IMG/VR virus record: IMGVR_UViG_3300006802_015709
Coordinates: 1 to 53,593 of that record
Reading direction: 5' to 3' (one strand)
DNA: 53,593 bases
From: a virus
Shown: one piece after another, positions 2-25,863 of the stretch
Numbering within the stretch: position 1 is the first letter of the stretch
Layout of the letters: every line of letters begins with the position of its first letter
Notes under the pieces: generated by a model
Told to the model about the DNA's origin: nothing
Databases searched by the model: none
Seen by the model: only the letters and a program-made list of their open reading frames with translations
Program-made: the position numbers and the translations under genes

Positions 2-766
2 TTTCCAACAGAAATTGTAACATTGCCATCTAAAGGATTGCTATATCCAAAAGACAATCCATTGGCATCTGGTAAAGTTGAAATGAAATATATGACGGCT
101 CGAGAAGAAGATATTCTTACTACACAATCATATATTCAGCAGGGAGTTGTATTAGACAAATTGTTTCAGTCTCTAATAGTAGGAAATGGTGAAGGTCAAA
201 AAATCAATTACAATGATTTGCTAGTAGGTGATAAAAATGCAATTATGATTGCAGCACGTATTTTAGGATATGGTAAAGAATATGTAACAGAGGTTACTAC
301 ACCATCCGGTAAGAAGCAGGAAGAAACAATCGACCTTACTACTATTCAAGATCGTCCATTTAACGAAGAGTTAATCGAACCTGGGGTAAATGAATTCTCA
401 TTCCAGCTACCAGCCAGTAAACGTGTTATAACGTTCAAAGTACTATCGCATAGAGATAATGATGCTATTGAGTCGGAAATGAAAGGCCTTAAGAAACTCC
501 AGCGAAAGACCGGCGGAGCAGATCCTCAATTAACTACCAGATTGGCACATGCTATTGTATCCGTTGATGGAGATGATGACAAAGCTAAAATTCGTAATTT
601 TGTTCGAGAAGAGTTATATGCTATAGATTCTCGAGCATTGAGAGAGTATATGAAAACAGTTCAACCTGACGTTGATATGGATATTGAATTTATTGATGAG
701 GAGACTGGTGAGCCATTTACTTTAAGCTTGCCGATAGGAGTCAACTTTTTTTGGCCTGACGCCTAG
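2..766 (+). CDS. 26: T4 gp26-like baseplate/tail assembly protein (5' partial)
   Basis: The open frame enters from the left edge, so the true start lies outside the window; a TTG at 23 is internal to the conserved LPSKGLLYP motif and is not the start. The motifs LPSKGLLYP, KYMTAREEDILT and GVVLDKLFQSLI are what I associate with the T4 gp26-like base plate family, a protein needed for tail hub assembly. The middle part (about residues 120-190) holds the VITFKVLSHRDND segment, and the protein ends FFWPDA. The last 29 bases overlap a second open frame (738-971) that lacks a good start. Its place two genes before the tape measure is where other long-tailed phages keep the frameshifted tail assembly chaperone, so that role is a reasonable inference. 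Family call is fairly sure; function is less so. Confidence 0.8.
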   Translation, partial: FPTEIVTLPSKGLLYPKDNPLASGKVEMKYMTAREEDILTTQSYIQQGVVLDKLFQSLIVGNGEGQKINYNDLLVGDKNAIMIAARILGYGKEYVTEVTTPSGKKQEETIDLTTIQDRPFNEELIEPGVNEFSFQLPASKRVITFKVLSHRDNDAIESEMKGLKKLQRKTGGADPQLTTRLAHAIVSVDGDDDKAKIRNFVREELYAIDSRALREYMKTVQPDVDMDIEFIDEETGEPFTLSLPIGVNFFWPDA

Positions 767-971
767 CTACCGACTTACACTCCATAAACAAATATTTGAT
801 CTTGTGTATTGGGGCAAGGGTGGTTTCACCTGGTCTGATGTGTATGATATGCCTGTTTGGTTACGCACGTTCTATATTAGAAGTGTTGACAATGTGCATA
901 AACAAAAAGCCAAGGCCGAAGAGGATGCTGTTAAAAAGGCCAAGGCAAAAGGGTCAGGAAAGCGCAGATAA
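738..971 (+). CDS. 51: gp51-like C-terminal extension, probably reached by frameshifting
   Basis: This frame is open from 738 to the TAA at 969-971 and reads FFGLTPSYRLTLHKQIF, then DLVYWGKGGFTWSDVYDMP and VWLRTFYI, ending in a Lys/Ala-rich basic tail. There is no ATG before the one inside the conserved YDMP segment (849), so independent translation would lose the conserved part. The frame overlaps the end of the gp26-like gene, is +1 relative to it, and the overlap contains seven Ts (746-752). Shifting there joins the two proteins into one of over 320 residues. The conserved-looking WSDVYDMP stretch shows the frame is coding. The gp51 label rests on position and general resemblance only. A standalone ORF in another frame (796-993) is a shadow. 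Confidence 0.65.
   Translation, partial: ESTFFGLTPSYRLTLHKQIFDLVYWGKGGFTWSDVYDMPVWLRTFYIRSVDNVHKQKAKAEEDAVKKAKAKGSGKRR
743..755 (+). other. Candidate programmed frameshift site (T7 run)
   Basis: The gp26-like frame reads AAC TTT TTT TGG; the extension frame reads TTT TTT GGC. A +1 slip, or a -2 slip of tRNA-Phe back along the Ts, moves the ribosome between them. The zero-frame stop follows at 764-766. Tail assembly chaperone genes use such overlaps (-1 in lambda, -2 in Mu). I see no obvious downstream pseudoknot by eye. Confidence 0.55.
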
Positions 972-1276: not shown

Positions 1277-3511
1277 ATGGCAAACCAAATGTCTCCGGAA
1301 GAATTAGCAAGATTAGAAGCTCAATTAACTAGTTTAGCTGATAAATTACAACAACAACAACGATTATCAGTAAAGGTAAATCAAGATCAATTAGATCAAT
1401 TTGATGATATTACCAGTAAGCTAGAAGAGCAAGTACGATTATATTATCAAAGTGACACGGCATTAAAAAAATTAGTCGGAGATGCTAGAGATTTTGTTAC
1501 AGTGCAGGATGCTATTAATAAAAAACTAAAGACTAATTCGAAAGGTATATTAAGTATGGCACGTGCCATGAATGGATTGGTTTCAGAATTAGATAGATTT
1601 GTTGATATGCTTCCTGGTGGCAAAATATTAACTGAGTTACTTGGAGTAAATGATTTACGTGATAATTTACAAGAAGCATTAGATGTTGGTATTAAAACAT
1701 TAGGAGAAAGTTTAGCTAACGGTGCAGATGAAGCAGATGCATTGCAAGCAGCTGCTCAGGCCTTTACTGGACATTTAGCTGTTGGTAGATTAGCGGCACT
1801 TGGATTAGTAGCAGCTATTGGTGCATTAGTAACATTAGCAGTCTCATTAGAAAAACAATTTGCAGGTATAGCAAAAGAAACAGGTATTACGGTATCACAA
1901 TCAGAAGAATTAGCTAAATCATCACAAGCTGTAGCAAATAGATTAGATGCTCAACTAATAACGATGGGAGATGTATTAGCAGTACAAAAGGCTACTATAA
2001 AAGAATTTGGTACTATGGCTATGATAACTCCAGAGATAGCAGCAGAAGTTGCTAATATTGGAGAGGCATTTGGGTATGGTGCAGAGGAAGCTGCAAAAGT
2101 AAATAATGCATTATTAGGATTAGGTGTACCTGCAAAAGAAGCCGCAGATGCACAAAGGGAATTGGCGGCAGAGGCCTTAAAGGCCGGAGTTAACGTAGGA
2201 ACGGTTACAGCTGATATAGCTACAAATGCAAAATCTACAGCAAAATTCTTTGGAGGAAATGTTAAAGCATTAACCAATGCCGCTGTAGAAGCTGCTAAAT
2301 TAGGCGTAAGTTTAGATCAAATGGTTAAAACGGCTGATTCCTTATTAGATATAGAATCTAGCTTAGCTAATCAATTTGAATTTATGGCCTTAACTGGTAA
2401 AGAAATTAATTTTGATGAGGCACGTCGATTAGCAGCAAATAATGACATTGCAGGTGCTACTAAGCTAATATTAGACGGAATGGGTGGAATTGCCGAATTT
2501 CAAGAAATGGATACATTCCAAAAAGAAGCCGCAGCTAAGGCAGCGGGAATGTCTGTTGAAGAATTATCTAAATCGTTAGCAATTCAAGAAAAATTAGGCG
2601 ATGCTACTGCAGACCAATTGGCCGCTGCGCAAGGCTTAGGTTTGACGGCAGCCGAAATAGCTAACTTAAGCGATGAAGATCTGCAGACTCGGTTAGAACA
2701 AGAACAATCTGCTAAAAAACTAAATGCAAATTTTACAGATTTAGGAAATGAATTGAAATTATCATTGCTACCTGTAGCAGAATCATTATTAGCTATTATA
2801 TCAGCCATCAGCCCAGTCTTAAAAGTCGTTGGAATCTTAGTTAAAGCGATTATGTCACCATTAATAGGTGTATATGAAATGTTCGATGCTATGTATAAAA
2901 TATTAACAGGTTCTACCGATCAATTATCTGCAATGGGTGAAGTACTTGGTGTCGTTGGTATTGCATTAGCTGCAATTGGCTCGGCAATAGCAATAGGCTT
3001 TTTACCAGCTATAATATCTGCAGCATATGGAGCGTTGGCCATGGCAGGTAGCTTAATTGCTGGTGCATTTGCAGCATTGGGTCCATTTGGTATTCCATTA
3101 GGAATTGCTGCAATAGCCGGCTTAGCATCAATGGTAATGCCTAGTATTTTTAAGGCAGAATCGGCAGGCGATATGTTCTCCCCGGCCGATGGTAGAACTC
3201 AAATATCAACTAAAGAGGGTGGATTATTTCAATTATCTAAAAATGATGATGTTATAGCAGCCCCTGGCCTGGCAAATGCAATGGCTGGAATAACATCTCC
3301 TGAAACAATAATCGCACCGCCAGCTGGAACAAATACTAATACCGCCGGTAGCACAGATATGAGCACAACAAATGCATTACTAAATCAATTGGTAAACAAT
3401 ATAAGTGCATTATCAAATAGACCAGTACAAATAGTAATAGGTGGTAGAGTAGTAGATGAAATCAAAGCACAGGCAGATATTAATAGTACTTATGTAGTAG
3501 GAGCGGGATAA
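1277..3511 (+). CDS. Tail tape measure protein
   Basis: 744 residues, Ala-rich and mostly helical, with an N-terminal coiled-coil region (about 1-100) rich in Gln, Leu and Lys and several long hydrophobic stretches (about 168-190, 495-525 and 555-620). This is the usual make-up of tape measure proteins, which set tail length and line the tube, and whose hydrophobic parts are thought to help DNA cross the host membrane. It is among the longest genes of the tail module and follows the chaperone-like genes. It is shorter than many tape measures, so a short tail or a second tape-like protein is possible. Its TAA overlaps the next gene's ATG by one base. Confidence 0.8.
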   Translation: MANQMSPEELARLEAQLTSLADKLQQQQRLSVKVNQDQLDQFDDITSKLEEQVRLYYQSDTALKKLVGDARDFVTVQDAINKKLKTNSKGILSMARAMNGLVSELDRFVDMLPGGKILTELLGVNDLRDNLQEALDVGIKTLGESLANGADEADALQAAAQAFTGHLAVGRLAALGLVAAIGALVTLAVSLEKQFAGIAKETGITVSQSEELAKSSQAVANRLDAQLITMGDVLAVQKATIKEFGTMAMITPEIAAEVANIGEAFGYGAEEAAKVNNALLGLGVPAKEAADAQRELAAEALKAGVNVGTVTADIATNAKSTAKFFGGNVKALTNAAVEAAKLGVSLDQMVKTADSLLDIESSLANQFEFMALTGKEINFDEARRLAANNDIAGATKLILDGMGGIAEFQEMDTFQKEAAAKAAGMSVEELSKSLAIQEKLGDATADQLAAAQGLGLTAAEIANLSDEDLQTRLEQEQSAKKLNANFTDLGNELKLSLLPVAESLLAIISAISPVLKVVGILVKAIMSPLIGVYEMFDAMYKILTGSTDQLSAMGEVLGVVGIALAAIGSAIAIGFLPAIISAAYGALAMAGSLIAGAFAALGPFGIPLGIAAIAGLASMVMPSIFKAESAGDMFSPADGRTQISTKEGGLFQLSKNDDVIAAPGLANAMAGITSPETIIAPPAGTNTNTAGSTDMSTTNALLNQLVNNISALSNRPVQIVIGGRVVDEIKAQADINSTYVVGAG

Positions 3512-13834: not shown

Positions 13835-14596
13835 ATGGCAATTAATTTAGATGCAATCCGAAGCAAACTTGACAAGCTTCAAAATCAGACAACCAAGCAA
13901 AACAACCTTTGGAAGCCTGAACCTGGTAAGCAACAAATCAGAATCGTTCCTTATCAGCACAACAAAGAAAATCCATTCCTGGAAATGCATTTTCATTACG
14001 ACTTAGCTAAGCGTAATTATTTATCACCAATGACATATGGTCGTCCTGATCCGGTAATTGAATTCGCTGAAAAGCTAAAGTCATCTGGTAATTCCGATGA
14101 ATGGAAGCTAGGTAAGAAAATGGAACCTAAGATGCGTACTTATGTACCTATTGTTGTACGTGGTAAAGAATCTGAAGGTGTTAAGTTTTGGGGCTTTGGA
14201 AAAACAGTTTATACTGAACTATTAGGATTTATCGCAGATCCTGATTATGGTGATATTACGGATCCAATGAACGGCCGTGATATTAGTGTAGAATTTACGC
14301 CATCTGATTCTCCAGGAACATATCCTAAGACAGCAATTCGTGTAAAACCTAATACATCTCCAATAACTGAAGATCGTAATATCGCTGAACTAATAGCTAG
14401 CAAGCAACCAAATATCTCGGATATCTTCAAAGAGCCTACTTATGAGGAACTAGAGAAGGCTTTAGAGAATTGGTTGAATCCTGAAGAAGGAGAAGAGGCT
14501 AGTACGTCACAAGCATCAAATGATACTGCACAACCAGCTCCAGCTAGTAAAGTTGATAATGTTGCAGATGCATTTGATGAATTGTTCAACAATTAA
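13835..14596 (+). CDS. 32: Single-stranded DNA-binding protein (gp32)
   Basis: 253 residues with the gp32 layout: a basic N-terminal segment for cooperativity (AIRSKLDKLQNQTTKQ), a core OB-type region with aromatic residues (about 25-190, including VPYQHNKENPFLEMHFHYDL and KFWGFGKTVY), and a long acidic, low-complexity tail ending DAFDELFNN that would dock other replication proteins. It differs from T4 gp32 in having no cysteine at all, so the zinc site is absent, and it is shorter than T4's 301 residues. It coats ssDNA in replication and recombination, and heads the uvsX-exonuclease gene group. Confidence 0.85.
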   Translation: MAINLDAIRSKLDKLQNQTTKQNNLWKPEPGKQQIRIVPYQHNKENPFLEMHFHYDLAKRNYLSPMTYGRPDPVIEFAEKLKSSGNSDEWKLGKKMEPKMRTYVPIVVRGKESEGVKFWGFGKTVYTELLGFIADPDYGDITDPMNGRDISVEFTPSDSPGTYPKTAIRVKPNTSPITEDRNIAELIASKQPNISDIFKEPTYEELEKALENWLNPEEGEEASTSQASNDTAQPAPASKVDNVADAFDELFNN

Positions 14597-14615
14597 TTTA
14601 TAGAAAAGGTTATAA

Positions 14616-15755
14616 ATGGCTAAAACAAAGCAAGAACAAACTGATGATCTGGCCGGAGAGTTAGCAGCTGCATTGAATAGTAAATTTAAAAATACTAATC
14701 ATAAAACAGCTTTCTTTCTAGACGGAGATACCGATACACCAGCTGATGTAAAAGGCTGGGTTGGTACCGGTTCATCAATGCTTGATCTCGCTATATCAAA
14801 TCGACCTAACGGTGGATTTCCAGTTGGCCGTATAACAGAAATTACAGGTCTAGAAGCATCGGGTAAGTCATTATTGGCTGCCCATGCTCTAGCCAATACT
14901 CAAAAGCAAGGTGGAATGGCAGTGTATATAGATACAGAAAATGCTATTAGCCGAGAGTTTTTAGAAGCTATTGGATTGGACTTGCAAAAACTGTTATATG
15001 TTCCATTGGAGACGGTTGAGGATATATTCGAGGCGATTGAGAGTATTATCGCATCTGTTCGTAAATCTAATAAGGATCGTCTGGTTACAATTGTTGTGGA
15101 TTCTGTAATGGGAGCATCAACAAAACCAGAAATGGAAAAAGAATACGATAAGGATGGTTATGCAACTCAGAAAGCAATTATCTTATCTAAAGGTATGCGA
15201 AAGCTAACCAACATGATTGGCCGTGAAAAGATCTGTCTATTGTTTACTAACCAATTACGTACGCGATTGGGAGTAAGTTTTGGTGATCCATGGACAACTT
15301 CTGGTGGTAAAGCAATTCCGTTTCATTCTTCAGTAAGATTAAGATTGAAATCAATCGGACAAATCAAAATGAAAGTCAAAGGAATTGATCAAATCATAGG
15401 TATCAAAACACGAGCTCAGGTTATTAAAAACAGAATGGGACCACCATTGAAATCAATTGATTATGAAATATATTTCGAATCAGGTATTGATGATTTTGGT
15501 GGATGGTTACATGTCATGAAGGATCATAAAATTGTTAAGCAAGCTGGCGCTTGGTACACGTATACTACTGATGCTGGAGATGACGTTAAGTTCCAGTCTA
15601 AGGATTTCGAGAAACTAGTTACTGCAGATGATGAGCTGCGTGATGAAATCTACAAGAAAATTTGTGATTCATATATCTTTACTTATAAACCAGGTGAGGA
15701 TATTGGTATTGATGATGTTTCCGTTGATGAAGAATTTGTAAATGAAGAAGGATAG
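14616..15755 (+). CDS. uvsX: UvsX RecA-like recombinase
   Basis: 379 residues. Walker A is GLEASGKS (78-85); the Walker B region is VTIVVDSV. The catalytic and DNA-binding features of a RecA core follow (LLFTNQLRTRLGVSFGDPW, TTSGGKAIPFHSSVRLRL). The C-terminus is acidic (DIGIDDVSVDEEFVNEEG). It forms filaments on ssDNA and starts recombination-dependent replication with gp32. It lies 19 nt after gp32, and its last 14 bases overlap the start of the exonuclease gene. Confidence 0.92.
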   Translation: MAKTKQEQTDDLAGELAAALNSKFKNTNHKTAFFLDGDTDTPADVKGWVGTGSSMLDLAISNRPNGGFPVGRITEITGLEASGKSLLAAHALANTQKQGGMAVYIDTENAISREFLEAIGLDLQKLLYVPLETVEDIFEAIESIIASVRKSNKDRLVTIVVDSVMGASTKPEMEKEYDKDGYATQKAIILSKGMRKLTNMIGREKICLLFTNQLRTRLGVSFGDPWTTSGGKAIPFHSSVRLRLKSIGQIKMKVKGIDQIIGIKTRAQVIKNRMGPPLKSIDYEIYFESGIDDFGGWLHVMKDHKIVKQAGAWYTYTTDAGDDVKFQSKDFEKLVTADDELRDEIYKKICDSYIFTYKPGEDIGIDDVSVDEEFVNEEG

Positions 15756-16803
15756 GTTTCAAGAGATATTGGCTGAAATCAATAACGATAAGTTAGAACA
15801 GGAAGGCCAAAATCAAAATAGTCATATTATGGTAGTGGATGGACTTAACATGTTTATCCGAGTATTCTCAGCAATACCATCCTTAAATGATGATGGAGAC
15901 CATATTGGTGGTGTTGTCGGATTTCTGCGGTCATTAGCTGCAGTTATCCGGCAGCATAAGCCAACGCGTTGCATTGTGGTATTTGATGGTAAAGGTGGTT
16001 CAGCTCGACGCCGAAAAATATATCCAGACTACAAGGCAAACCGAGCTGTTAAAACAAGACTCAATCGTCATGAAGAATTTGATAATATTGAAGATGAACA
16101 AGCTTCGATGCGACGACAATTTTCTCGAATGATTGAGTATCTAAATCTACTACCATTAACAGTTATGGCTATAGATAATATCGAGGCAGATGATGCAATA
16201 GCATATATTGCAAATGAGATTTATACAAAGGCAAGTCAGAAGGTTACTATAGTATCAACGGATAGAGACTTCCTGCAATTAGTTAATAATCGAATTCAGG
16301 TGTGGAGTCCGGTTAAAAAGAAACTATATACACCTGAGGTTGTTGTGCAAGAGACAGATATCCATTGTGATAACTATCTTCTGTACAGAACGTTTAGTGG
16401 GGATATATCAGACAATATACCAGGAGTTGATGGTGTAGGGTTAAAAACACTTATAAAAAACTATCCAATGTTACAAACACAAAAAATGTCATTGGATGAA
16501 ATCAAAGAATATACAGCAGATCAAGTAAATAATAGCAAGCTTAAAATATATCAAAAAGTACAAGCTGGAATTGATTCCGGTATACTAGATCGTAATTATC
16601 GATTAATGCAATTGCAGGAAGTTGATATCTCTGGCTCAGCAAAAATGCTGATATTAGATAAAACGAGAGAAACGGTGCACTGTACAAATATACTAGAGTT
16701 TAAAAAGTTATTCATGCTTGATAAATTATACACGTCTATTAAAGATGTTGATAGTTGGATGCTAAACTCTTTTAATTCATTAAATGCTTATGCAAGCATT
16801 TGA
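15742..16803 (+). CDS. 5'-3' exonuclease / flap endonuclease (RNase H-like)
   Basis: 353 residues. The metal-binding acidic residues of the FEN family are visible: MVVDGLNMFIR, IVVFDGKGGSARRRKIYP, DNIEADDAIAYIA, and VTIVSTDRDFLQLV, followed by the helix-hairpin-helix region GDISDNIPGVDGVGLKT. It should remove RNA primers or flaps on the lagging strand, as T4 RNase H does. The start is inside uvsX, which suggests translational coupling. About 30 N-terminal residues precede the domain. Confidence 0.88.
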   Translation: MKKDRFQEILAEINNDKLEQEGQNQNSHIMVVDGLNMFIRVFSAIPSLNDDGDHIGGVVGFLRSLAAVIRQHKPTRCIVVFDGKGGSARRRKIYPDYKANRAVKTRLNRHEEFDNIEDEQASMRRQFSRMIEYLNLLPLTVMAIDNIEADDAIAYIANEIYTKASQKVTIVSTDRDFLQLVNNRIQVWSPVKKKLYTPEVVVQETDIHCDNYLLYRTFSGDISDNIPGVDGVGLKTLIKNYPMLQTQKMSLDEIKEYTADQVNNSKLKIYQKVQAGIDSGILDRNYRLMQLQEVDISGSAKMLILDKTRETVHCTNILEFKKLFMLDKLYTSIKDVDSWMLNSFNSLNAYASI

Positions 16804-16806
16804 TAT

Positions 16807-16827
16807 TTGAAAAATTTATTATATAAT
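16807..16827 (+). promoter_or_regulatory. Class B motif TTG-N12-TATAAT before gene 41
   Basis: TTG, 12 bases (AAAAATTTATTA), TATAAT, ending 6 nt before the ATG at 16834. No ribosome-binding site is visible between them. Confidence 0.55.
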
Positions 16828-16833
16828 TGATGT

Positions 16834-18189
16834 ATGACCGATCGCTTAGCTAATTTTGGATATACATTCCAAATCAAAGTAATAACATCCTTATTGGCAG
16901 ATAAAGTATTTATGCAGCAGATATCTGATATCTTGTTGCCTACCTATTTTGAATCAGAAGCAAACCAATGGATAGTTGATACTATATTGGAATATGGACA
17001 GGAGTATAAATCATCTCCAACTCTTGAAGTAATGAAAGTCAAGCTTGAAGATGTAGATAATGATATACTTAAAACTCAGATCGTAGATCATTTAAAAGAT
17101 GCATGGAAGTATGTAGGTGCAGAAGATTTAGAGTTTATTAAAGAACAAGCTATTAATTTTTGCCGTAATCAAGAAATTAAAAAAGCTATATTAGATTCAG
17201 TACCACTATTAAATAAAGGTGAGTATGAGGCTATTAAAGGTAAGATTGACACTGCTTTAAAGGCAGGTGGTGATAAAGATATAGGACACGAATATATGAC
17301 TAGTATAGATGAACGATATACAGAATCGGTTAGATTTCCTCAAGAAACCCCATGGGATGTTATTAACGATTTAACAGATGGTGGTTTAGGAAAAGGGGAA
17401 TTAGGAGTAATGGTTGCTCCTGCAGGTATTGGTAAGTCTTGGGCGTTAATGAATATCGGAGCACATAATGTTAAAAAAGGCAAAACTGTATTGCATTATA
17501 CATTAGAGCTTAATGAGGCATATGTTGGTCTTCGGTATGATTCAGTTATAACCGGCATTGCAAATCAAAATCTTAAGCATTATCAAGATGAGGTAAAAGA
17601 GAAATTATCTAAGATTGAAGGTGAATTAATTATCAAATACTATCCAACTAAAACAGTATCAGTATTAGGTATCAAATCACATGTTGAAAAATGCATAATG
17701 CAAGGAAAGAAACCAGATGTGGTAATTGTAGATTATGCCGATTTGCTACGAGGACACGGTCAAGAGAAACGACATGAACTAGAAGGTATTTATGAAGACC
17801 TTAGAGGACTAGCAGGGGAATATGAAATACCAGTCTGGACCGCATCGCAAGCGAATCGGTCAGCTCTCGAGGAAGATATAATTGGAGCGGATAAGATTGC
17901 AGAATCATATGGTAAAGTAATGGTAGCTGATTTCATTATATCACTATCTAGAAAGGTAACAGATAAATTAGCTGGTACTGGTAGATGGCACGTAATTAAA
18001 AATCGATTCGGTCCTGATGGTATTACATTGCCAAGTAAAATGAATACATCTAACGGGCAATTTGACATCTATAATGATAATTCAGTACAAGGTAAAGATA
18101 CTCAGAAACAAATGTCTAATGGAAATGAATTAGCAAGGAAGATGTTGTCTCAAAAATTTAAGGAAATTAAGAGCGGCGATTTTGGATAA
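16834..18189 (+). CDS. 41: Replicative DNA helicase (gp41, DnaB-type)
   Basis: 451 residues. An N-terminal helical domain (1-150) precedes a RecA-type ATPase core with Walker A APAGIGKS (195-202), a conserved Glu strand (LHYTLELNEAYVGLR), Walker B VVIVDYADLL and the sensor WTASQANRSAL. This is the DnaB/gp41 pattern. It unwinds the fork 5'-3' on the lagging strand. The neighbouring class B motif predicts a leaderless or very short leader mRNA. No primase (gp61) or loader (gp59) gene is seen in the window. Confidence 0.9.
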   Translation: MTDRLANFGYTFQIKVITSLLADKVFMQQISDILLPTYFESEANQWIVDTILEYGQEYKSSPTLEVMKVKLEDVDNDILKTQIVDHLKDAWKYVGAEDLEFIKEQAINFCRNQEIKKAILDSVPLLNKGEYEAIKGKIDTALKAGGDKDIGHEYMTSIDERYTESVRFPQETPWDVINDLTDGGLGKGELGVMVAPAGIGKSWALMNIGAHNVKKGKTVLHYTLELNEAYVGLRYDSVITGIANQNLKHYQDEVKEKLSKIEGELIIKYYPTKTVSVLGIKSHVEKCIMQGKKPDVVIVDYADLLRGHGQEKRHELEGIYEDLRGLAGEYEIPVWTASQANRSALEEDIIGADKIAESYGKVMVADFIISLSRKVTDKLAGTGRWHVIKNRFGPDGITLPSKMNTSNGQFDIYNDNSVQGKDTQKQMSNGNELARKMLSQKFKEIKSGDFG

Positions 18190-18241
18190 AAAAACTTAAC
18201 TTTATTAACTCAAAATATAGCGTATTAGTGATGCGCGTTCA

Positions 18242-18249
18242 TATTTATA
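18242..18249 (+). promoter_or_regulatory. Class A motif TATTTATA within an inverted repeat
   Basis: The octamer lies in a 125-nt gap before the ribonucleotide reductase gene. ATATTTAT (18241-18248) and ATAAATAT (18259-18266) form a perfect 8-nt inverted repeat with a 10-nt spacer, so CATAAATA, near the T4 late -10 sequence, also appears on the + strand. The start is 65 nt downstream. Confidence 0.45.
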
Positions 18250-18314
18250 TAAGAATTCATAAATATCGAGGCGCGTCGGTTATTAAATAATCATTAAAAA
18301 AATTAAGGTCGTAA

Positions 18315-20171
18315 ATGGAACTATCTAACCGGATACTCAGCGATATCACAGTACATATGAAGTATGCAAAATATCAGCCTGAGCTACAAAGACGTGAAAC
18401 ATGGGAAGAATTAGTAACACGTAATAAAGAAATGCATATCAAAAAATATCCTGCTATTAAAGATGAAATCGAGGCAGCATATCAATTTGTATATGATAAA
18501 AAAGTATTACCATCAATGCGTAGTTTGCAGTTTGGTGGTAAGCCTATTGAAATATCTCCAAACAGAGTTTACAATTGTGCGTATTTACCAATAGATGATT
18601 GGAGATCATTCTCAGAAGTTATGTTCTTGTTGTTAGGTGGTACTGGAGTAGGGTATTCAGTTCAACAGCATCATGTTGATGCATTACCAGAAATACATAA
18701 ACCTAATTTTGAACGTAACCGTAGATATTTAATTGCGGATTCAATTGAAGGATGGGCAGATGCTATAAAAGTTTTAATGAAGAGCTATTTCTTTGGAGGG
18801 TCTAGACTGAAATTCGATTTCAGTGATATTAGACCAAAAGGTGCTCGTTTAGTTACATCAGGTGGTAAAGCACCTGGTCCTCAACCTCTTAAAGAGGCGT
18901 TGGTAAAAATAGAGGGAATACTAAATGAGAAACAGAATGGCGAGAAGCTCAAAGCTATTGATGTTCATGATATCGTTTGTCATATTGCTGATGCCGTTCT
19001 CGCTGGTGGTATTAGGCGTGCTGCACTTATATCGCTATTTTCGGCAGACGATGATGAAATGATTGCATGTAAAGCTGGTAATTGGTGGGAATTGAATCCA
19101 CAGAGAGGCCGAGCTAATAATTCAGCAGTACTAATGCGACATAAAATTACAAAGGAGTTCTTTATGAGCCTTTGGAAGCGTATTGAAGCATCTGGTGCTG
19201 GAGAACCTGGCATATATCTTTCAAATGATAAAGATTGGGGTACTAATCCGTGTTGTGAAATAGCACTAAGACCATACCAATTCTGTAACCTATGTGAGGT
19301 AAATGCATCGGATATCGAATCACAAGAAGATTACGAATCCAGAGTAAAGGCAGCTACATTTATTGGTACACTTCAAGCTGGATATACCGATTTTCATTAT
19401 TTAAGGCCAGTTTGGCAAAGAACAACAGAAAAGGATGCTCTTATTGGTATTTCAATGACCGGTATAGGATCAGGTACAGTATTAGGTTATAATATGAAGT
19501 CCGCTGCTAAACTAGTTAAAGAAGAAAATGCCAGAGTAGCAGAATTAATTGGTATCAATAAATCAGCAAGATGTACAACCGTTAAACCTGCAGGAACAAC
19601 TTCATTAACCTTAGGAACGTCATCTGGTATTCATGCATGGCACAATGATTATTATATTAGGCGAGTGAGAGTAGGTAAGAATGAAGCTATTTATACATAT
19701 CTAGCTATTCATCATCCAGAATTAATTGAAGATGAGTATTTCCGGCCACATGATACAGCTGTGATATCAGTACCACAAAAAGCACCAGCTGGGTCAATAT
19801 TGAGAACCGAATCACCATTTCAATTATTAGAAAGAGTAAAGCGAGTTCATTTAGAATGGATCAAGTCAGGTCACCGGTCCGGTTCAAATACTCATAATGT
19901 ATCTGCTACTATATCAATTCGAGATCATGAATGGGATTCTGTAGGAGAGTGGCTTTGGAACGAACGCGCGCATTATAATGGATTATCCGTATTACCATAT
20001 TCAGATCATACATATAACCAAGCTCCATTCGAAGATATCACAGAAAGCGAGTATGAGCGATTAATGAAATCATTATCTAATATAGACTTGTCAAAGATTG
20101 TTGAATTAGATGATGATACAGATCTATCGGGAGAATTAGCTTGTTCTGGAGCTAGTTGTGAAATAATTTAA
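18315..20171 (+). CDS. nrdJ: Adenosylcobalamin-dependent ribonucleotide reductase (class II)
   Basis: 618 residues. The sequence follows the class II ribonucleoside-triphosphate reductase family: LPSMRSLQFGG, NCAYLPIDDW, LLGGTGVGYSVQ, NPCCEIALRP with FCNLCEVN (thiyl and acceptor Cys and Glu region), VKPAGTTSLTLG, and a C-terminal cysteine pair (LACSGASCEII) for re-reduction. It turns ribonucleotides into deoxyribonucleotides for phage DNA. It needs coenzyme B12 from the host, so the host must make or import cobalamin. No small subunit is needed. A GIY-YIG endonuclease gene follows, as is common at phage nucleotide-metabolism genes. Confidence 0.88.
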   Translation: MELSNRILSDITVHMKYAKYQPELQRRETWEELVTRNKEMHIKKYPAIKDEIEAAYQFVYDKKVLPSMRSLQFGGKPIEISPNRVYNCAYLPIDDWRSFSEVMFLLLGGTGVGYSVQQHHVDALPEIHKPNFERNRRYLIADSIEGWADAIKVLMKSYFFGGSRLKFDFSDIRPKGARLVTSGGKAPGPQPLKEALVKIEGILNEKQNGEKLKAIDVHDIVCHIADAVLAGGIRRAALISLFSADDDEMIACKAGNWWELNPQRGRANNSAVLMRHKITKEFFMSLWKRIEASGAGEPGIYLSNDKDWGTNPCCEIALRPYQFCNLCEVNASDIESQEDYESRVKAATFIGTLQAGYTDFHYLRPVWQRTTEKDALIGISMTGIGSGTVLGYNMKSAAKLVKEENARVAELIGINKSARCTTVKPAGTTSLTLGTSSGIHAWHNDYYIRRVRVGKNEAIYTYLAIHHPELIEDEYFRPHDTAVISVPQKAPAGSILRTESPFQLLERVKRVHLEWIKSGHRSGSNTHNVSATISIRDHEWDSVGEWLWNERAHYNGLSVLPYSDHTYNQAPFEDITESEYERLMKSLSNIDLSKIVELDDDTDLSGELACSGASCEII

Positions 20172-20196
20172 TTTATAAAATTTTGTTCGTCTTGTA

Positions 20197-20204
20197 TATT
20201 TATT
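20197..20204 (+). promoter_or_regulatory. Class A-like motif TATTTATT
   Basis: TATTTATT within the 49-nt gap after nrdJ, 16 nt before the ATG at 20221 of the homing endonuclease. It suggests the endonuclease has its own promoter. Confidence 0.35.
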
Positions 20205-20220
20205 AATATAAACCATTATA

Positions 20221-20943
20221 ATGGATACTATTATGATAATATACAAGACAACAAATTTAATTAATGGAAAAATCTATATCGGAAAGGATAAACATAATAA
20301 TCCTAACTATATAGGTTCTGGTTTAAGTTTACAGAATGCTATTAAAAAATATGGTAAAGTCAATTTTCAAAAAGAAATTTTAGAATATTGTGATTCAGAG
20401 GAACATATGTTAGAGCGAGAAATAATTTGGATACATAAGCTTAATTCAACAGATCGTGCAATTGGATATAACATGACAGTTGGTGGTAACGGAGGTAATA
20501 CTAGAATAAATTATACAGACCAACAACTAACTGAATATAAAGATAAACTATCACATGGATTGCGTAATTCTAAAAAATATGCTACCTTTATTAAAAATAA
20601 AACAGGTACTAAACGACCAGACCATTCGAAAAAAATGAAAGAATTATATCGATCGGGTAAACTAGTACCGCACAATAAAGGAGTTCCATGTCCACAGCAT
20701 GTAAAAGATATCTTATCTAAAAGATTAAAAGGAGTAAAATTAACCGAGGAGCATAAAGCTAAGATTGGAAAAAGTAAATGTAAAGCAGTTGAAGTGTATA
20801 CATTGGAAGATGTTTATATTGAGACTTTGCCTAGTATAAAAACAGCTTCTAAGAAATATAATGTAGGCCGCGACAGTATTTATGGGTGTTGTATAGGCAA
20901 GTATAAACAAGGAGCAGGATATAAATGGAAATATGCGAGGTAG
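20221..20943 (+). CDS. GIY-YIG homing endonuclease
   Basis: 240 residues. The N-terminal catalytic domain shows IYKTTNLINGKIYIGK, with conserved Arg/Glu positions after it (LEREIIWIHKLN, IGYNMTVGGNGG). The middle has NUMOD3-type DNA-binding pieces (TEEHKAKIGKSKCK), and the end a NUMOD1/IENR-like helix-turn-helix (SIKTASKKYNVGRDSIYGC, then GYKWKY). It is free-standing, not inside an intron, and probably cuts a phage-related allele near nrdJ. The start could also be the ATG at 20233; no clear ribosome-binding site separates the two. Confidence 0.88.
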   Translation: MDTIMIIYKTTNLINGKIYIGKDKHNNPNYIGSGLSLQNAIKKYGKVNFQKEILEYCDSEEHMLEREIIWIHKLNSTDRAIGYNMTVGGNGGNTRINYTDQQLTEYKDKLSHGLRNSKKYATFIKNKTGTKRPDHSKKMKELYRSGKLVPHNKGVPCPQHVKDILSKRLKGVKLTEEHKAKIGKSKCKAVEVYTLEDVYIETLPSIKTASKKYNVGRDSIYGCCIGKYKQGAGYKWKYAR

Positions 20944-20975
20944 TTTAACATATTCATATTTAGGTACGGAGGATT

Positions 20976-20996
20976 GGATATACACCATGTATATCC
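20976..20996 (+). terminator. Rho-independent terminator after the homing endonuclease
   Basis: GGATATACA and TGTATATCC form a perfect 9-bp stem with a 3-nt loop (CCA), followed by TTTCTT. It closes the nrdJ-endonuclease segment before the small-gene cluster. The U-tract is imperfect, so efficiency may be moderate. Confidence 0.65.
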
Positions 20997-21038
20997 TTTC
21001 TTCACCTAAAAAAAGTTGAAAAAAAGTTTCTGAAAAGG

Positions 21039-21068
21039 TTGGTCGCGTACGTTTTTTTCTTATCTTTA
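21039..21068 (+). promoter_or_regulatory. Host-type promoter candidate, TTG-N19-TATCTTTA
   Basis: TTG at 21039-21041, 19 bases, then TATCTTTA at 21061-21068, 25 nt before the ATG at 21094. This fits the Bacteroidota housekeeping pattern TTTG-N17-23-TAnnTTTG with one mismatch at each end. It follows a terminator and opens a run of small genes, as expected of an early promoter. Confidence 0.45.
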
Positions 21069-21093
21069 GATATAACCTTTAAAGAAAGAGAAA

Positions 21094-21306
21094 ATGAGAA
21101 AAGTTGAAATGATTGTCCTGAGCCATTTGAATGATGCAATGTTAGAGATGCATATGGAATCGCTGAAAGATCAAGCTTATATGAGATTGCGATTTGTGAA
21201 ATATCTAATCTTTCATTATCCAGATACCACCGTTGAAATCGATGTAAAGGCTGAGTTCAAGAAATTCCAGTCTGAAGAATCCGTAATTGAAAACCTTAAT
21301 AAATAA
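21094..21306 (+). CDS. Small unknown protein, 70 residues
   Basis: First gene after the host-like promoter, preceded by AAAGAAAGAG. Helical N-terminal two thirds (HLNDAMLEMHMESLKDQAYM) and a charged C-terminus. Not recognised. Its place at the head of the small-gene cluster suggests early expression. Confidence 0.6.
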   Translation: MRKVEMIVLSHLNDAMLEMHMESLKDQAYMRLRFVKYLIFHYPDTTVEIDVKAEFKKFQSEESVIENLNK

Positions 21307-21313
21307 TAAAAAA

Positions 21314-21643
21314 ATGAAAAAGTTATATTTCATAGCATTTGCTGTGCTTATTGCATTTGTATGTGTTTATCCAGTTACTTATTATAGTCAATGGGATACT
21401 CAAACAGCTACCGTTACCGGTAAAGAAAGAATCACCAAAGTATCAGACGGTAATGATAATAGTTATTATCTCGTCTATACAGATAAAGGTACCTTTAAGG
21501 TAAAGGATTCACTCATTCTGTTCCGGTTCAATTCCAGTGATCTATATGGTAGTATCAAAGCTGATAGTACCTATACATTCAGAACAGTAGGCTTCAGAGC
21601 CGGATTCTTATCAGAATATCCTAATGTAGTAACCATTAACTAA
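21314..21643 (+). CDS. Membrane-anchored DUF1523-like protein
   Basis: 109 residues from the ATG at 21314, preferred over an upstream in-frame ATG (21287) inside the previous gene because it directly precedes the lysine-rich membrane anchor. Residues 4-24 (LYFIAFAVLIAFVCVYPVTY) form a signal anchor. The outer domain has the pattern of DUF1523: ATVTGKERITK, YLVYTDKGTFKVKDS, FRFNSSDLYG, then GFRAGFLSEYPNVVTI. Function is unknown; it would face the periplasm. The family match is by recalled pattern. Confidence 0.6.
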   Translation: MKKLYFIAFAVLIAFVCVYPVTYYSQWDTQTATVTGKERITKVSDGNDNSYYLVYTDKGTFKVKDSLILFRFNSSDLYGSIKADSTYTFRTVGFRAGFLSEYPNVVTIN

Positions 21644-21650
21644 TTAACTA

Positions 21651-21881
21651 ATGTCAGAAGCAGAATTTTTAGCAGATGGTTGGGAGAAAGTAAATCTCGA
21701 CGAAGGTAATGTGAACATAGGCGATAATATCGTTAATGGAAATGGATGTTTTGGCACTCTTGCCAAGATTACTAAGAAAGGCAAGTATGCGGTAAGATTT
21801 GATATGGATTATTCAGATGAACCGTTAACTAAATTTAGTCCGGCTAAATTCGAAAGATTCTTTCTTGTAGATAAGCGATAA
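21651..21881 (+). CDS. Small unknown protein, 76 residues
   Basis: Acidic N-terminus (MSEAEFLADGWEKVNLDEGN), then a short beta-rich, SH3-like segment (VNIGDNIVNGNGCFGTLAKI, KYAVRFDMDY). Begins 7 nt after the previous gene. Not recognised. Confidence 0.55.
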   Translation: MSEAEFLADGWEKVNLDEGNVNIGDNIVNGNGCFGTLAKITKKGKYAVRFDMDYSDEPLTKFSPAKFERFFLVDKR

Positions 21882-21882
21882 T

Positions 21883-22080
21883 ATGGCATTTGTAGACGCA
21901 CCAATCACAATAACATACAAGCTAAGTGAGAAAGCCAAGAAGGTACATAAAAAGACCTTCTATGGCACTCATATAGATCGTATTATTGATAAGCTTGAAA
22001 AGAACCGGTTACCAGGATTTACAGCTCGAACTGTAATCATGCATATAGGAATAGGAAAAAGATTTATAGATGGAAACTAA
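21883..22080 (+). CDS. Small unknown basic protein, 65 residues
   Basis: Starts one base after the previous stop, ATG at 21883. Basic and helical (KLSEKAKKVHKKTFYGTHID), ending in IGKRFIDGN. Overlaps the next gene's start by 11 nt. Not recognised. Confidence 0.5.
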   Translation: MAFVDAPITITYKLSEKAKKVHKKTFYGTHIDRIIDKLEKNRLPGFTARTVIMHIGIGKRFIDGN

Positions 22081-22324
22081 CAGAACTACAATACCATATA
22101 TGTCATTATATGATTATTATGGAAAGCCAATGGGTCGATGCTCATTAAGCGCGGATATATTCAATACTGCCCGGCGGTATGCTATTAAAATAGAAACGCG
22201 TCAGGTAAAAACAAAAACATATAGCGGTGATGTCATGCTATATCCAAAAGACTTCCTAGAGGCGTATGCAAAATTTCGGAAGGTAATAGATAACCTACCG
22301 GATTCTGCTAGACGTAAATTTTGA
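22070..22324 (+). CDS. Small unknown protein, 84 residues
   Basis: Start overlaps the previous gene. The sequence MSLYDYYGKPMGRCSLSADI, then YAIKIETRQVKTKTYSGDVM, then a short helix (DFLEAYAKFRKVIDNL) gives no recognised family. Followed by a class B motif, so it ends the small operon. Confidence 0.55.
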   Translation: METNRTTIPYMSLYDYYGKPMGRCSLSADIFNTARRYAIKIETRQVKTKTYSGDVMLYPKDFLEAYAKFRKVIDNLPDSARRKF

Positions 22325-22327
22325 TAA

Positions 22328-22348
22328 TTGAGTTTTAATCGTTATATT
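22328..22348 (+). promoter_or_regulatory. Class B motif TTG-N12-TATATT
   Basis: TTG, 12 bases (AGTTTTAATCGT), TATATT, ending 21 nt before the ATG at 22370. One of only two class B sites with room for a leader; it would drive the genes leading into queD. Confidence 0.5.
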
Positions 22349-22369
22349 ATATAAATCAAAACAATAAAA

Positions 22370-22672
22370 ATGAGTAAGCAAAAAGGTTTCAATTACAAAG
22401 AGATTGCAATGGATTTCAATTGGTATAAAATTCCATCATGCGATCAGGAATATCTACGTACCATGATGATGGAAACGGTTACTGATAATTCAGTTAAGTC
22501 CACAGGCATATCTTTCCGGGATACATATCCAAATGCATCTAATTTTGCATTGTTCCAGTCTGAAGATAACAAAGATAACTATGCAGCAGAGTTCGCATTG
22601 CCAACGGCAGGTACGGCATCACATCTATTGCATGGACGTAAATATTATGCAGTTTGGACATATGAAGGATAA
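22370..22672 (+). CDS. Unknown protein, 100 residues
   Basis: Mixed sequence with MDFNWYKIPSCDQEYLRTMM at the N-terminus and a C-terminal segment HLLHGRKYYAVWTYEG. Not recognised. First gene after the class B motif; its end overlaps the next start (22662) by 11 nt. Confidence 0.55.
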   Translation: MSKQKGFNYKEIAMDFNWYKIPSCDQEYLRTMMMETVTDNSVKSTGISFRDTYPNASNFALFQSEDNKDNYAAEFALPTAGTASHLLHGRKYYAVWTYEG

Positions 22673-22868
22673 GTATTATGGAATTCTGGTTACGTATAAT
22701 CCATTTGTAAATAAATGGTGTACATTTAGTCGTAACGATGAAAAATATTACTGGATTGGAGAAGCCAAAACAGTAGGAAAAGGAGATTCTCCGGTTGCAG
22801 CTTTGGAAAATTATTTCTATATTATAGACAAAGAAAAGGATATAAATGGGAAAGTATCAATCAACTAA
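22662..22868 (+). CDS. Small unknown protein, 68 residues
   Basis: The ATG at 22662 is used; the longer frame from 22533 is rejected because it lies inside the previous gene. The sequence MKDKYYGILVTYNPFVNKWC, then YYWIGEAKTVGKGDSPVAAL, then ENYFYIID, looks like a small alpha/beta domain. The end overlaps queD by 23 nt, suggesting coupled translation. Confidence 0.5.
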   Translation: MKDKYYGILVTYNPFVNKWCTFSRNDEKYYWIGEAKTVGKGDSPVAALENYFYIIDKEKDINGKVSIN

Positions 22869-23331
22869 ATTGTTTGAAAACTATTCTGTAGCTATTAGAC
22901 AATGGAAAGCTCAGCATTCACATTGCCAATTGTTACATGGATATGCATTGAAATTCAAAGTATGGTTCGAATCTAATACTCCAGATGATGAGAATATGGG
23001 GTTAGATGATATGAATTGGATCGTTGATTATGGTGGATTCCAAGATCCTCCACGTGGCAATGGACTTAAAGCCTGGATGGACCATATGTGGGATCATACA
23101 TTACTAATACAAGCAGACGATCCATATAGAGATGTATTTGAACAGATGGGTCAAATGGGTCTAGCTAAAGTTCATTTTCTTGAGAAGATGGGAGCTGAAT
23201 CTTGTGCTAAAATAGTATTTGACCATTTTAATGATGTCTTATCTAAAACAGATGCTGGTAGATGTAGAGTCGTTAAAGTCGAGTGTTTTGAAAATGATAA
23301 TAATTCAAGTATTTACGAGGAAACTAAATAA
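22846..23331 (+). CDS. queD: QueD-like 6-carboxy-tetrahydropterin synthase
   Basis: 161 residues of the PTPS/QueD fold, the second step of 7-deazaguanine synthesis (after FolE). Catalytic Cys27 in HSHCQLLHGYAL, a DHTLL segment with the active-site His, and the Glu-containing GAESCAKIVF near the C-terminus are present. Two zinc-ligand positions look changed: the His of the usual FSAAH segment is Ile17 (YSVAIRQW), and the second His of HGH is Tyr33. It also has an insertion FQDPPRGNGLKAWMDHMW. It overlaps queE by one base. The family is clear; whether it makes CPH4 with the normal metal site is open. Confidence 0.8.
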   Translation: MGKYQSTKLFENYSVAIRQWKAQHSHCQLLHGYALKFKVWFESNTPDDENMGLDDMNWIVDYGGFQDPPRGNGLKAWMDHMWDHTLLIQADDPYRDVFEQMGQMGLAKVHFLEKMGAESCAKIVFDHFNDVLSKTDAGRCRVVKVECFENDNNSSIYEETK

Positions 23332-24170
23332 TGGCAAATTCAGAAGAAGGTAAATTATTGATCTCTGAGGATTTCTATTCTATTCAAGGAGAAGGTAAAA
23401 CGACAGGAGTACCATCTTATTTCATTAGATTAGCTAATTGCAATCTAACATGTGGTGCTACTGCGGCTTTTGTTAATAGGTTTAAGAAAGAAGAACGTGA
23501 TGATACACCGGGTTCATTTCGAGGTGATCTAGAGCAGGCAGGTAAAGCTACATGGACATGTGATTCTATTCCAGAATGGGCGAAAGGTGTTAATCAGCCT
23601 TATGATTATCTAATCGAAAGATGGAAGGATGAAGGTATCTTACATGATATCGCATCCGGACTAATCCATATCATATGGACTGGCGGTGAGCCTAATATAC
23701 CAATGCATCAGCGCGCAATCGTAGGATTCATGGAATACTTTGAAGAATATTGCTATGCATGTGATATTCCATTTACACCTTTCTGTGAAATAGAAACAAA
23801 TGGTACTATTCCATTAACAAAAGAATTGGAATATTATATCGATCAAATCAATTGCTCGCCAAAGCTATCTAATTCCGGTATGAATGCTAAGCAACGTATT
23901 AGAGAGAATGCATTGGATTCTATTAGGTCACATCCTAATTATCAATTCAAATTTGTAATTTCAAATGAAGATGATATCAAAGAGATGTTTGATGATTTTA
24001 TCAATGCATTTAACATTCCACTTACTAATGTATGTTGTATGCCTGGAATGGATTCGCGAGAAAATTTCCATGAACTAACTAAATGGGTAATGGAAATGGG
24101 TAAAAAGTATAAATTTATAGCATTGTCTAGAATGCACATTTCAGCTTACGACCAGACCACTGGTGTTTAA
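23331..24170 (+). CDS. queE: QueE-like 7-carboxy-7-deazaguanine synthase (radical SAM)
   Basis: 279 residues. The N-terminus SEDFYSIQGEGKTTGVPSYF and RLANCNLTC is typical of QueE; HIIWTGGEPN is the SAM-binding GGEP motif and EIETNGT the next core strand. The cluster cysteines are Cys37, Cys41 and, after an inserted loop of about 33 residues, Cys77 in TWTCDS, so the spacing is C-x3-C-x35-C instead of C-x3-C-x2-C. The reaction makes CDG from the QueD product. It sits between queD and the GroES-like gene. Confidence 0.85.
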   Translation: MANSEEGKLLISEDFYSIQGEGKTTGVPSYFIRLANCNLTCGATAAFVNRFKKEERDDTPGSFRGDLEQAGKATWTCDSIPEWAKGVNQPYDYLIERWKDEGILHDIASGLIHIIWTGGEPNIPMHQRAIVGFMEYFEEYCYACDIPFTPFCEIETNGTIPLTKELEYYIDQINCSPKLSNSGMNAKQRIRENALDSIRSHPNYQFKFVISNEDDIKEMFDDFINAFNIPLTNVCCMPGMDSRENFHELTKWVMEMGKKYKFIALSRMHISAYDQTTGV

Positions 24171-24184
24171 AAACAGGAGAAACT

Positions 24185-24484
24185 ATGAAAATGAAACCAA
24201 TGGGAGATATGCTCCTAATCAAAGTAACGGAAGAAGAAAAGAAAACTAGTTCAGGTATTCTACTAACTGCCAGTCAATCTGGATATGTATATGGTAAGGT
24301 TGCAGCAGTAGGTACAGGATTATTTACTCAGACTGGTGATAAAATACCAATGACTGCACGAGTAGGTGATACTGTATTAATGCAACAACATTTAATTAAT
24401 GATGGTCGTAAAGTAAGACTTGAGAATGAGGAGTATGCACTAATCAGAGAATCAGAATTATCAATGATATCAACAGGAGAATGA
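24185..24484 (+). CDS. GroES-like co-chaperonin
   Basis: 99 residues with the Cpn10 pattern: MKPMGDMLLIKVTEEE, the mobile loop SSGILLTASQSG with the GIxL residues that contact GroEL, GKVAAVGTG, VGDTVLMQQH, and a C-terminal EEYALIRESELSMIS. It should cap host GroEL to fold phage proteins, as T4 gp31 does. An AACAGGAGAA ribosome-binding site supports the ATG. It is placed inside the 7-deazaguanine genes, with its stop overlapping folE; no large chaperonin subunit is seen. Confidence 0.85.
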   Translation: MKMKPMGDMLLIKVTEEEKKTSSGILLTASQSGYVYGKVAAVGTGLFTQTGDKIPMTARVGDTVLMQQHLINDGRKVRLENEEYALIRESELSMISTGE

Positions 24485-25191
24485 AAATGGGAGAAAATAA
24501 AAATACATCAATTGAATTAGTCAAGACCGGTTTTGCCAATGGTATTTCTACTCAACTAGCTGAAATTCAAGCAATACACGGACCTACAGTAGGTTTGACT
24601 GATTTGAATAAAGCTGATATTATTGATAAGGCAGAAAAAGCTTTTGGAGAATTTCTAGATGCATTAGGAGTAGATTGGCGCAATGATCCTAATTCAATGG
24701 GAACTCCTAGACGTGTTGCTAAAGCATATGTAAATGATCTATGGGCTGGCAGATATGAACCAGCACCATCAATTACAGCTTTTCCTAGTGATGGATATGA
24801 CGGAATGGTATTTGAAGGTGGCATTCCATTAACATCAATGTGCTCGCACCATCATCAGACCATACAAGGCCTAGTTCATGTAGCATATATTCCTGGCCAG
24901 GATAGTAAAGTAATTGGATTATCTAAGCTAAATCGATTGGTAGAACACTTTGGAAGACGAGGCGCTATCCAAGAGCAATTAACAGTTGCTATACATAATG
25001 CAGTAAGCACTATCATTAATGATAATAATGGTGTAGCTGTTATGGTTGAAGCTACTCACAATTGTGTACAATGTCGTGGTGTTAAGCATGGCGGAGCTAG
25101 TATGAAAACTAGTAAATTAACAGGTGCATTTAAAGATGATGCAGCAACGAGGAATGAATTTTATGAGTTCGTTAGAGGTTACCAAAAGTAA
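24481..25191 (+). CDS. folE: GTP cyclohydrolase I
   Basis: 236 residues. The zinc and active-site residues are visible: MCSHHHQTIQG (Cys-x-His-His), VIGLSKLNRLVEHFGRRGAI, QEQLTVAIHNAV, and THNCVQCRGVKHGG with the second zinc Cys. It converts GTP to dihydroneopterin triphosphate, the entry to 7-deazaguanine (and folate) synthesis. An N-terminal extension of about 45 residues precedes the domain. Translation is coupled to the GroES-like gene by overlap (ATGA). Confidence 0.9.
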   Translation: MKMGENKNTSIELVKTGFANGISTQLAEIQAIHGPTVGLTDLNKADIIDKAEKAFGEFLDALGVDWRNDPNSMGTPRRVAKAYVNDLWAGRYEPAPSITAFPSDGYDGMVFEGGIPLTSMCSHHHQTIQGLVHVAYIPGQDSKVIGLSKLNRLVEHFGRRGAIQEQLTVAIHNAVSTIINDNNGVAVMVEATHNCVQCRGVKHGGASMKTSKLTGAFKDDAATRNEFYEFVRGYQK

Positions 25192-25360
25192 AGAAGAGCA
25201 TAAAATAGAAATTGAGTATATCCGTACTAAACTACATCTAGCAGGACGTATTGGAATGGATGCTGAATTAGTATTCAATGCACTGCTATTAGCTAAATAC
25301 GGAGAATTTGAAACCCCATTTGAAGCATTTGTTTCATCAGTAGAAGACATATTAGAATGA
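25163..25360 (+). CDS. Small unknown protein, 65 residues
   Basis: The ATG at 25163 is chosen because GAGGA lies 9 nt upstream; a start at 25154 would sit against that site. The frame overlaps the end of folE. Helical, charged protein (KSKEEHKIEIEYIRTKLHLA, DAELVFNALLLAKYGEF). Its last bases overlap the phosphoribosyltransferase start. Not recognised. Confidence 0.55.
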   Translation: MSSLEVTKSKEEHKIEIEYIRTKLHLAGRIGMDAELVFNALLLAKYGEFETPFEAFVSSVEDILE

Positions 25361-25863
25361 ACATAGTAATACCTGAATACAAAATAGAACGACGTGTTAG
25401 AGCAATGGCACATACACTATCCGAAGAACACCGTAATAGTGGATCACCATATCCACCGGTGATGATTTGTGTATTAAATGGCGCTTTCATGTTCTTTACG
25501 GACCTAGTGAAAGATATGGGTATAGATATTGAGGTTGATTTTATCCGTCCAAAATCTTATATTGGTAAAGATAATTCAGGTGGAGTTACATTTACTAAAG
25601 ATATTGAGTTGTCACTTAAAGGTAAGCGAGTTTATATAGTTGAGGATATTGTGGATACCGGCCAGACAATGATGGAAATATTGAAGCGTGTAGATTCAGA
25701 AATGCCAGCTGAGATTAAAGTAGTAACGCTTGTTCATCGCGAAGGAAATAATGTTCCTGTAGATCATTATTGTCTTGAAGTGCAAGACCAATGGCTAGCT
25801 GGATTTGGCTTTGATGATAATGGTCTTAAACGTAATTATAGAAATTTATACGAAATTAATTAA
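25357..25863 (+). CDS. hpt: Hypoxanthine-guanine phosphoribosyltransferase
   Basis: 168 residues. PRPP-binding motif VEDIVDTGQT (95-104), the flexible-loop region DFIRPKSYIGKDNSGG, the N-terminal CVLNGAFMFFTDL, and the C-terminal purine-contact segment WLAGFGFDDNGLKRNY match the HGPRT family. It should convert hypoxanthine or guanine plus PRPP to the nucleotide. Lying among folE, queE and dpdA, it could recycle guanine freed when DpdA swaps bases; that link is an inference. Its stop overlaps the polymerase start. Confidence 0.88.
   Translation: MNIVIPEYKIERRVRAMAHTLSEEHRNSGSPYPPVMICVLNGAFMFFTDLVKDMGIDIEVDFIRPKSYIGKDNSGGVTFTKDIELSLKGKRVYIVEDIVDTGQTMMEILKRVDSEMPAEIKVVTLVHREGNNVPVDHYCLEVQDQWLAGFGFDDNGLKRNYRNLYEIN

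Follow-up and report, generated by a model that had tools for sequence, protein, structure and literature searches.

A probable +1 frameshift adds a T domain to the gp26-like tail assembly chaperone of T4-type phages

The window analyzed here, a viral record, is 53,593 bases long, and its first gene, which is incomplete at the contig end, encodes a gp26-like protein. A second open frame overlaps the end of this gene by 29 nt, and the overlap spans a run of seven Ts (positions 746-752). A preliminary description of this DNA had given a start-less frame at 738-971, its 29-nt overlap with the gp26-like frame, and the seven Ts, and all of these are present (Table 1). The same description placed the two frames just before the tape measure gene; they do belong to that locus, but a small basic ORF (1011-1274) intervenes between the T domain and the tape measure gene, and the two are therefore not strictly adjacent. 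Matches to this small ORF were found in just 7 loci among those searched. Downstream of the tail genes, the window also carries a replication block (13835-28538) with genes for a single-stranded DNA-binding protein, a UvsX-like recombinase, a DnaB-like helicase, a ribonucleotide reductase, and a DNA polymerase.

Table 1. Features of the putative chaperone locus, in window coordinates
Feature	Positions	Strand	Remarks
gp26-like frame, proposed short chaperone form (N part)	2-766	+	5' end and start lie off the contig; stop TAG at 764-766
Second frame, +1 (equivalently -2) relative to the gp26-like frame	738-971	+	preceding stop TGA at 735-737; ends with TAA at 969-971
Part of the second frame read after the putative shift (T domain)	753-968	+	72 residues
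Candidate slip site, TTT TTT TGG CC in frame 0	746-756	+	same bases in 114 of the 122 distinct junctions
Proposed long form, 2-751 joined to 753-968	2-971	+	322 residues visible; predicted from the layout
Tape measure protein gene, which anchors the locus	1277-3511	+	tblastn match (E = 1e-10) to the region annotated as tape measure in phage immuto

The gp26-like protein matched the baseplate hub family phrog_150 (E = 2.3e-9). Among Pfam families, the TAC (tail assembly chaperone) families gave no match, and PF12322 (T4_baseplate) alone was recovered, at 21.5 bits (E = 2e-4), which is below its cut-off of 24.5. TAC families are highly divergent in sequence. The predicted structure of the window protein (pLDDT 93.5) matched baseplate hub proteins with a best TM score of 0.83, and the models of this protein and of a T4-type gp51 retrieved overlapping sets of baseplate hub matches; the models suggest that the gp26-like body has the fold of the T4 gp26/gp51 family. 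Among solved structures, no credible match was found by sequence, and none was found by fold for gp51. The T4-type gp51 model was also matched (E = 8e-4) by a 545-residue "Tape measure chaperone" of Citrobacter phage Moon (BFVD A0A0A0YVM8). Pfam and PHROG searches with the second frame alone returned no match.

A tblastn search of phage records uncovered relatives in Flavobacterium phage immuto (55% identity), Microcystis phage Mel-JY01 (48%), an uncultured 484-kb phage, Listeria phage LIS04, and Streptococcus phage GXN1. In these relatives the gp26-like frame stops shortly past an F-F or F-L pair, while an overlapping +1 frame continues for 69-89 codons beyond that stop; a frameshift is annotated in none of them. 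In immuto and Mel-JY01, the chaperone locus lies between the tail tube and tape measure genes. All distinct junctions of this first set of relatives have a long open +1 extension, with the sole exception of the uncultured 595-kb phage LR756511 (L006:3654-3923). That phage, a more remote relative, carries a -1 extension at T TTT TTC, yet its gp26-like protein also resembles the window family.

With IMG/VR searches the set grew to 122 distinct junctions, which come both from viral contigs and from the isolated phages immuto and Mel-JY01. The layout is the same throughout, and the second frame is in the +1 register in every one. Since the 122 sequences share ancestry, such counts overstate the number of independent events; the pattern is the same in 54 representatives, that is, lineages with <70% amino acid identity to each other. 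Three remote relatives with unusual sites (L003, TTT CTA TTC; L004, TTT TTT AGT; L005, TTC TTT CGT) were left out of this set, and each of these sites, as we read them, would permit a +1 slip on a UUU codon that precedes a pyrimidine.

The candidate slip site hardly varies. The frame-0 codons TTT TTT TGG CC, i.e., TTTTTTTGGCC, occur in 114 of the 122 junctions, and the remaining sites are TTT CTT TGG (n = 3), TTT TTT TTC (n = 2), TTT CTT TAC, CTT TTT TGG, and GCT TTT TGG (n = 1 each). Although TTC makes up 22% of the Phe codons elsewhere in the gp26 frame, it was found at neither of the two slip positions. In frame 0, Trp (119/122) and Pro (122/122) are encoded across the overlap, and the T frame resumes with GGC after the slip in 119 of 122 junctions (vs 9% background) and has CTG in 66 of 122 (vs 2%). 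Judged from this codon usage, the overlap bases are constrained in both frames. As to possible stimulators, no upstream Shine-Dalgarno-like element is conserved (one is present in 3 of the 54 representatives), and downstream RNA structure gave no conserved signal (mean z of -0.7 with mononucleotide shuffles).

We then considered the stretch of 31 codons that runs from the slip to the first conserved Met. Over these codons the +1 frame displayed a pN/pS of 0.21 with no stops (49 pairs, each sequence used once), close to the 0.25 of the gp26 frame, whereas the ratio in the other two frames was 1.77 (391 stops) and 1.21 (146 stops). These ratios indicate that the first 31 extension codons are under purifying selection as protein, in keeping with the conserved look that had been ascribed to the second frame before relatives were compared. 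That frame had also been described as having no usable start. It does lack an ATG ahead of the VYDMP motif, but a single candidate start, GTG at 804, exists there, at a position that is not conserved.

Sequencing or assembly errors typically arise at sites such as a seven-base homopolymer in a metagenomic contig, and the two frames could in principle be one miscalled, or broken, gene. We give this reading practically no weight: 122 distinct sequences, including those of two isolated phages, share the frame relation, frame 0 always ends shortly past the site, and both frames are constrained. The relatives rule it out, and in no case does a change in the T run merge the frames into a single gene. 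Expression of the second frame as a separate protein, from its own start codon or by stop-start coupling, is also quite improbable. It would have GTG 804 at its disposal in the window, as well as the Met of VYDMP (ATG in 101/122), and a TAATG overlap is present in a few remote relatives (Pseudomonas phage Cygsa01, L100; Vibrio phage D532, L191). However, 115 of the 122 sequences have no ATG within the first 25 extension codons, 29 have no ATG, GTG, or TTG at all from the opening of the frame to codon 25, and the conserved Met sits 32 residues into the extension, behind residues under strong selection. An internal start therefore has no conserved position ahead of the selected residues, and alignment of the overlap across relatives, which the preliminary description had proposed as a check, retained the layout in 122 of 122 with no conserved downstream start.

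Two further explanations would yield the same fusion by other means. In one, RNA polymerase slips on the seven Ts, so that a minority of mRNAs has one base fewer and encodes the fusion in frame. A T7 run is indeed found in most sequences, but it is broken or short in six junctions (TTTCTTT, GCTTTTTGG) whose frame relation is nevertheless kept, and shorter T runs are expected to slip poorly in transcription; we regard this explanation as just as improbable as a separate start. In the other, the ribosome moves back by two bases at the T run, as in phage Mu, with one extra Phe in the product. The final frame would be identical, and the site in the window permits such a shift, as do 117 of the 122 junctions. 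Codon-anticodon pairing after a -2 slip of the same tRNA fails, however, in five diverged junctions (TTT CTT and GCT TTT types), whereas every junction has YTT followed by T and thus allows the P-site tRNA to move by +1 (UUU to UUU or CUU to UUU). Because the YUU-U slip works in 122 of 122 and the -2 slip does not, we favor +1 and consider -2 unlikely, albeit marginally less so than polymerase slippage; the diverged sites disfavor both. The "+1/-2" shift of the preliminary description is accordingly retained as a frame relation and as a ribosomal shift, but not with its two directions on a par.

Collectively, the 122 junctions, the selection that acts before any conserved Met, and the conservation of the site support the frameshift by which the two frames had been proposed to be fused, and the locus very probably encodes a G/GT-type tail assembly chaperone of a T4-type phage, with the T domain added by a +1 frameshift. 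According to this model, the majority of ribosomes would terminate at 764-766 and produce the short form. A minority would pause at the UGG of UUU-UUU-UGG, a pause that we infer, as we do the fusion itself, its ratio, and the binding partners named below. The tRNA-Phe on the second TTT would then slip one base forward and re-pair from UUU to the overlapping UUU, and reading would resume at GGC (753), adding the 72-residue T domain. The lambda analogy suggests that the short form may associate with the tape measure protein and that its longer counterpart may bring in tail tube subunits, with both forms leaving before the tail is completed.

The layout recurs, with a -1 shift, in the gp26 genes of cyanophages and in some others. 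Their site is T TTT TTC in 61 of 67 distinct junctions, and the six exceptions comprise T TTT TTT (n = 2), T TTT TTG (n = 1), a TAATG overlap (n = 2), and Salmonella phage Vi01. In the two phages with TAATG, Cygsa01 (L100:3309) and D532 (L191 ~2220), this stop-start overlap replaces the slippery site; Vi01 (L185 ~2240) keeps the layout but lacks both a slippery site and an ATG. Syn1 (L193:2268-2399), HTVC008M (L187:2253-2390), OLIVR6 (L189:2184-2324), and P-TIM68 (L186:2223-2396) each have a tiny gene that is annotated as gp51 or as base plate hub assembly catalyst. The starts given for these genes are probably not genuine, because each gene lies in a frame with no stop between it and the -1 slip site of gp26.

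Profile comparisons link these extensions to one another. The window-clade extension matched the cyanophage -1 extension with E = 3e-7 (shuffled controls reached 3e-3 at best), and the latter matched the C-terminus of T4 gp51 with E = 1e-13 (shuffled controls, 2e-4 at best), as well as phrog_634 and the last 50 positions of phrog_150. Direct matches of the window-clade extension were weak, both to the gp51 C-terminus (E = 2.6e-3) and to phrog_634 (0.023), and for this reason the link to gp51 is routed through the cyanophage family. Judged by these profiles, the extension is probably a T domain whose kinship with the gp51 C-terminus of T4 is traced by way of the cyanophages. The second frame had been called gp51-like, which is apt for this C-terminal T domain but not for gp51 as a whole, whose body is gp26-like.

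T4 gp26 and gp51 are paralogues, with gp51 consisting of a gp26-like body and an extra C-terminal domain. In our tree, the gp51 sequences form one clade, and gp26 and gp51 lie apart from the -1 group; the branches are long, and the deeper order is unsure. Two PF12322 genes were found in T4 and one each in cyanophage, Listeria, and Streptococcus phages, and the window-clade profile hit a single gene in each of the window, immuto, Mel-JY01, and two large contigs. By these gene counts, T4 uses two genes where window-type phages would use one gene and a frameshift.

The T4-type family is already known to belong to the G/GT kind. Atkins et al. (2016) described G-T frameshifting in long-tailed phages as widely conserved "except T4" (PMC5009743), and T4 gp26 and gp51 have been listed as hub assembly chaperones (PMC3004832). 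As cited in PMC10885494, Vladimirov, Gautam and Davidson (Virology, 2022) reported that the chaperone genes of T4-like phages consist of a short gene and a fused longer gene, and PMC12846349 cites the same work for poly-T -1 slippery sites in T4-like phages. The proposal that gp26/gp51-like proteins are the T4-type counterpart of G/GT chaperones consequently holds but had been published, at least as these citing papers convey it, and the -1 case is probably known too. In the literature examined, with Vladimirov et al. represented by those papers, we found no report of the +1 arrangement in the window lineage, and the conserved +1 version looks new.

Several known systems invite comparison. The window locus shares with T4 gp26/gp51 the body family, the short and long forms, and a T domain in the long form that is probably related to the gp51 C-terminus, and differs in having one gene with a putative +1 shift rather than two genes. 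It resembles cyanophage gp26 in layout, in the position of the junction within the protein, and in a related T domain; the sites differ, however, with a -1 shift at T TTT TTC there and a +1 shift proposed at TTT TTT TGG here, and the cyanophage extension is often annotated as a tiny gp51. Lambda gpG/gpGT, short and long chaperone forms for the tape measure and tail tube, likewise has overlapping frames upstream of the tape measure gene and a minority long form made by frameshifting (PMC5009743), to which the proposed long form here would be analogous; the lambda shift is -1, and sequence searches matched the window protein to no TAC family. Both UUU-U and CUU-U have been described as slippery in +1 shifts (PMC10885494). 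The CUU-UGA site of RF2 (prfB) uses the same YUU-U re-pairing, and its exact CUU-U is found in four of our junctions, but the A-site codon here is a sense codon (UGG in 119/122) and not a stop, and no Shine-Dalgarno-like stimulator is conserved. A +1 shift is also very likely in the tail chaperone gene of the haloarchaeal myovirus HSTV-2 (PMC5009743), which is likened to the window by description alone.

These observations lead us to a broader interpretation, which we hold with some reserve though we think it likelier to be right than wrong. One chaperone family would obtain its long form in at least three ways, i.e., by a +1 slip in the window lineage, by a -1 slip in cyanophages and others, and by gene duplication in T4, with a stop-start overlap in a few members. 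The net loss of one base, or gain of two, within the T run would convert the -1 arrangement to the +1 arrangement, so that the direction of the shift could be exchanged, and TTTTTTTGGCC would represent a phage +1 frameshift motif of wide conservation with no need for a stop codon. Forward frameshifts have so far yielded no general motif (PMC10885494), and a +1 site that is conserved and places a sense codon in the A site is therefore useful. In relatives, the extension is misannotated: it is passed over, labeled a hypothetical protein, or called a tiny gp51 whose start lacks support. A large and mostly uncultured lineage seems to solve, by a +1 shift at a nearly invariant site, the problem that T4 answers with two genes, and the family may offer a system for asking how a protein ratio persists after the genetic device behind it has been exchanged for another.
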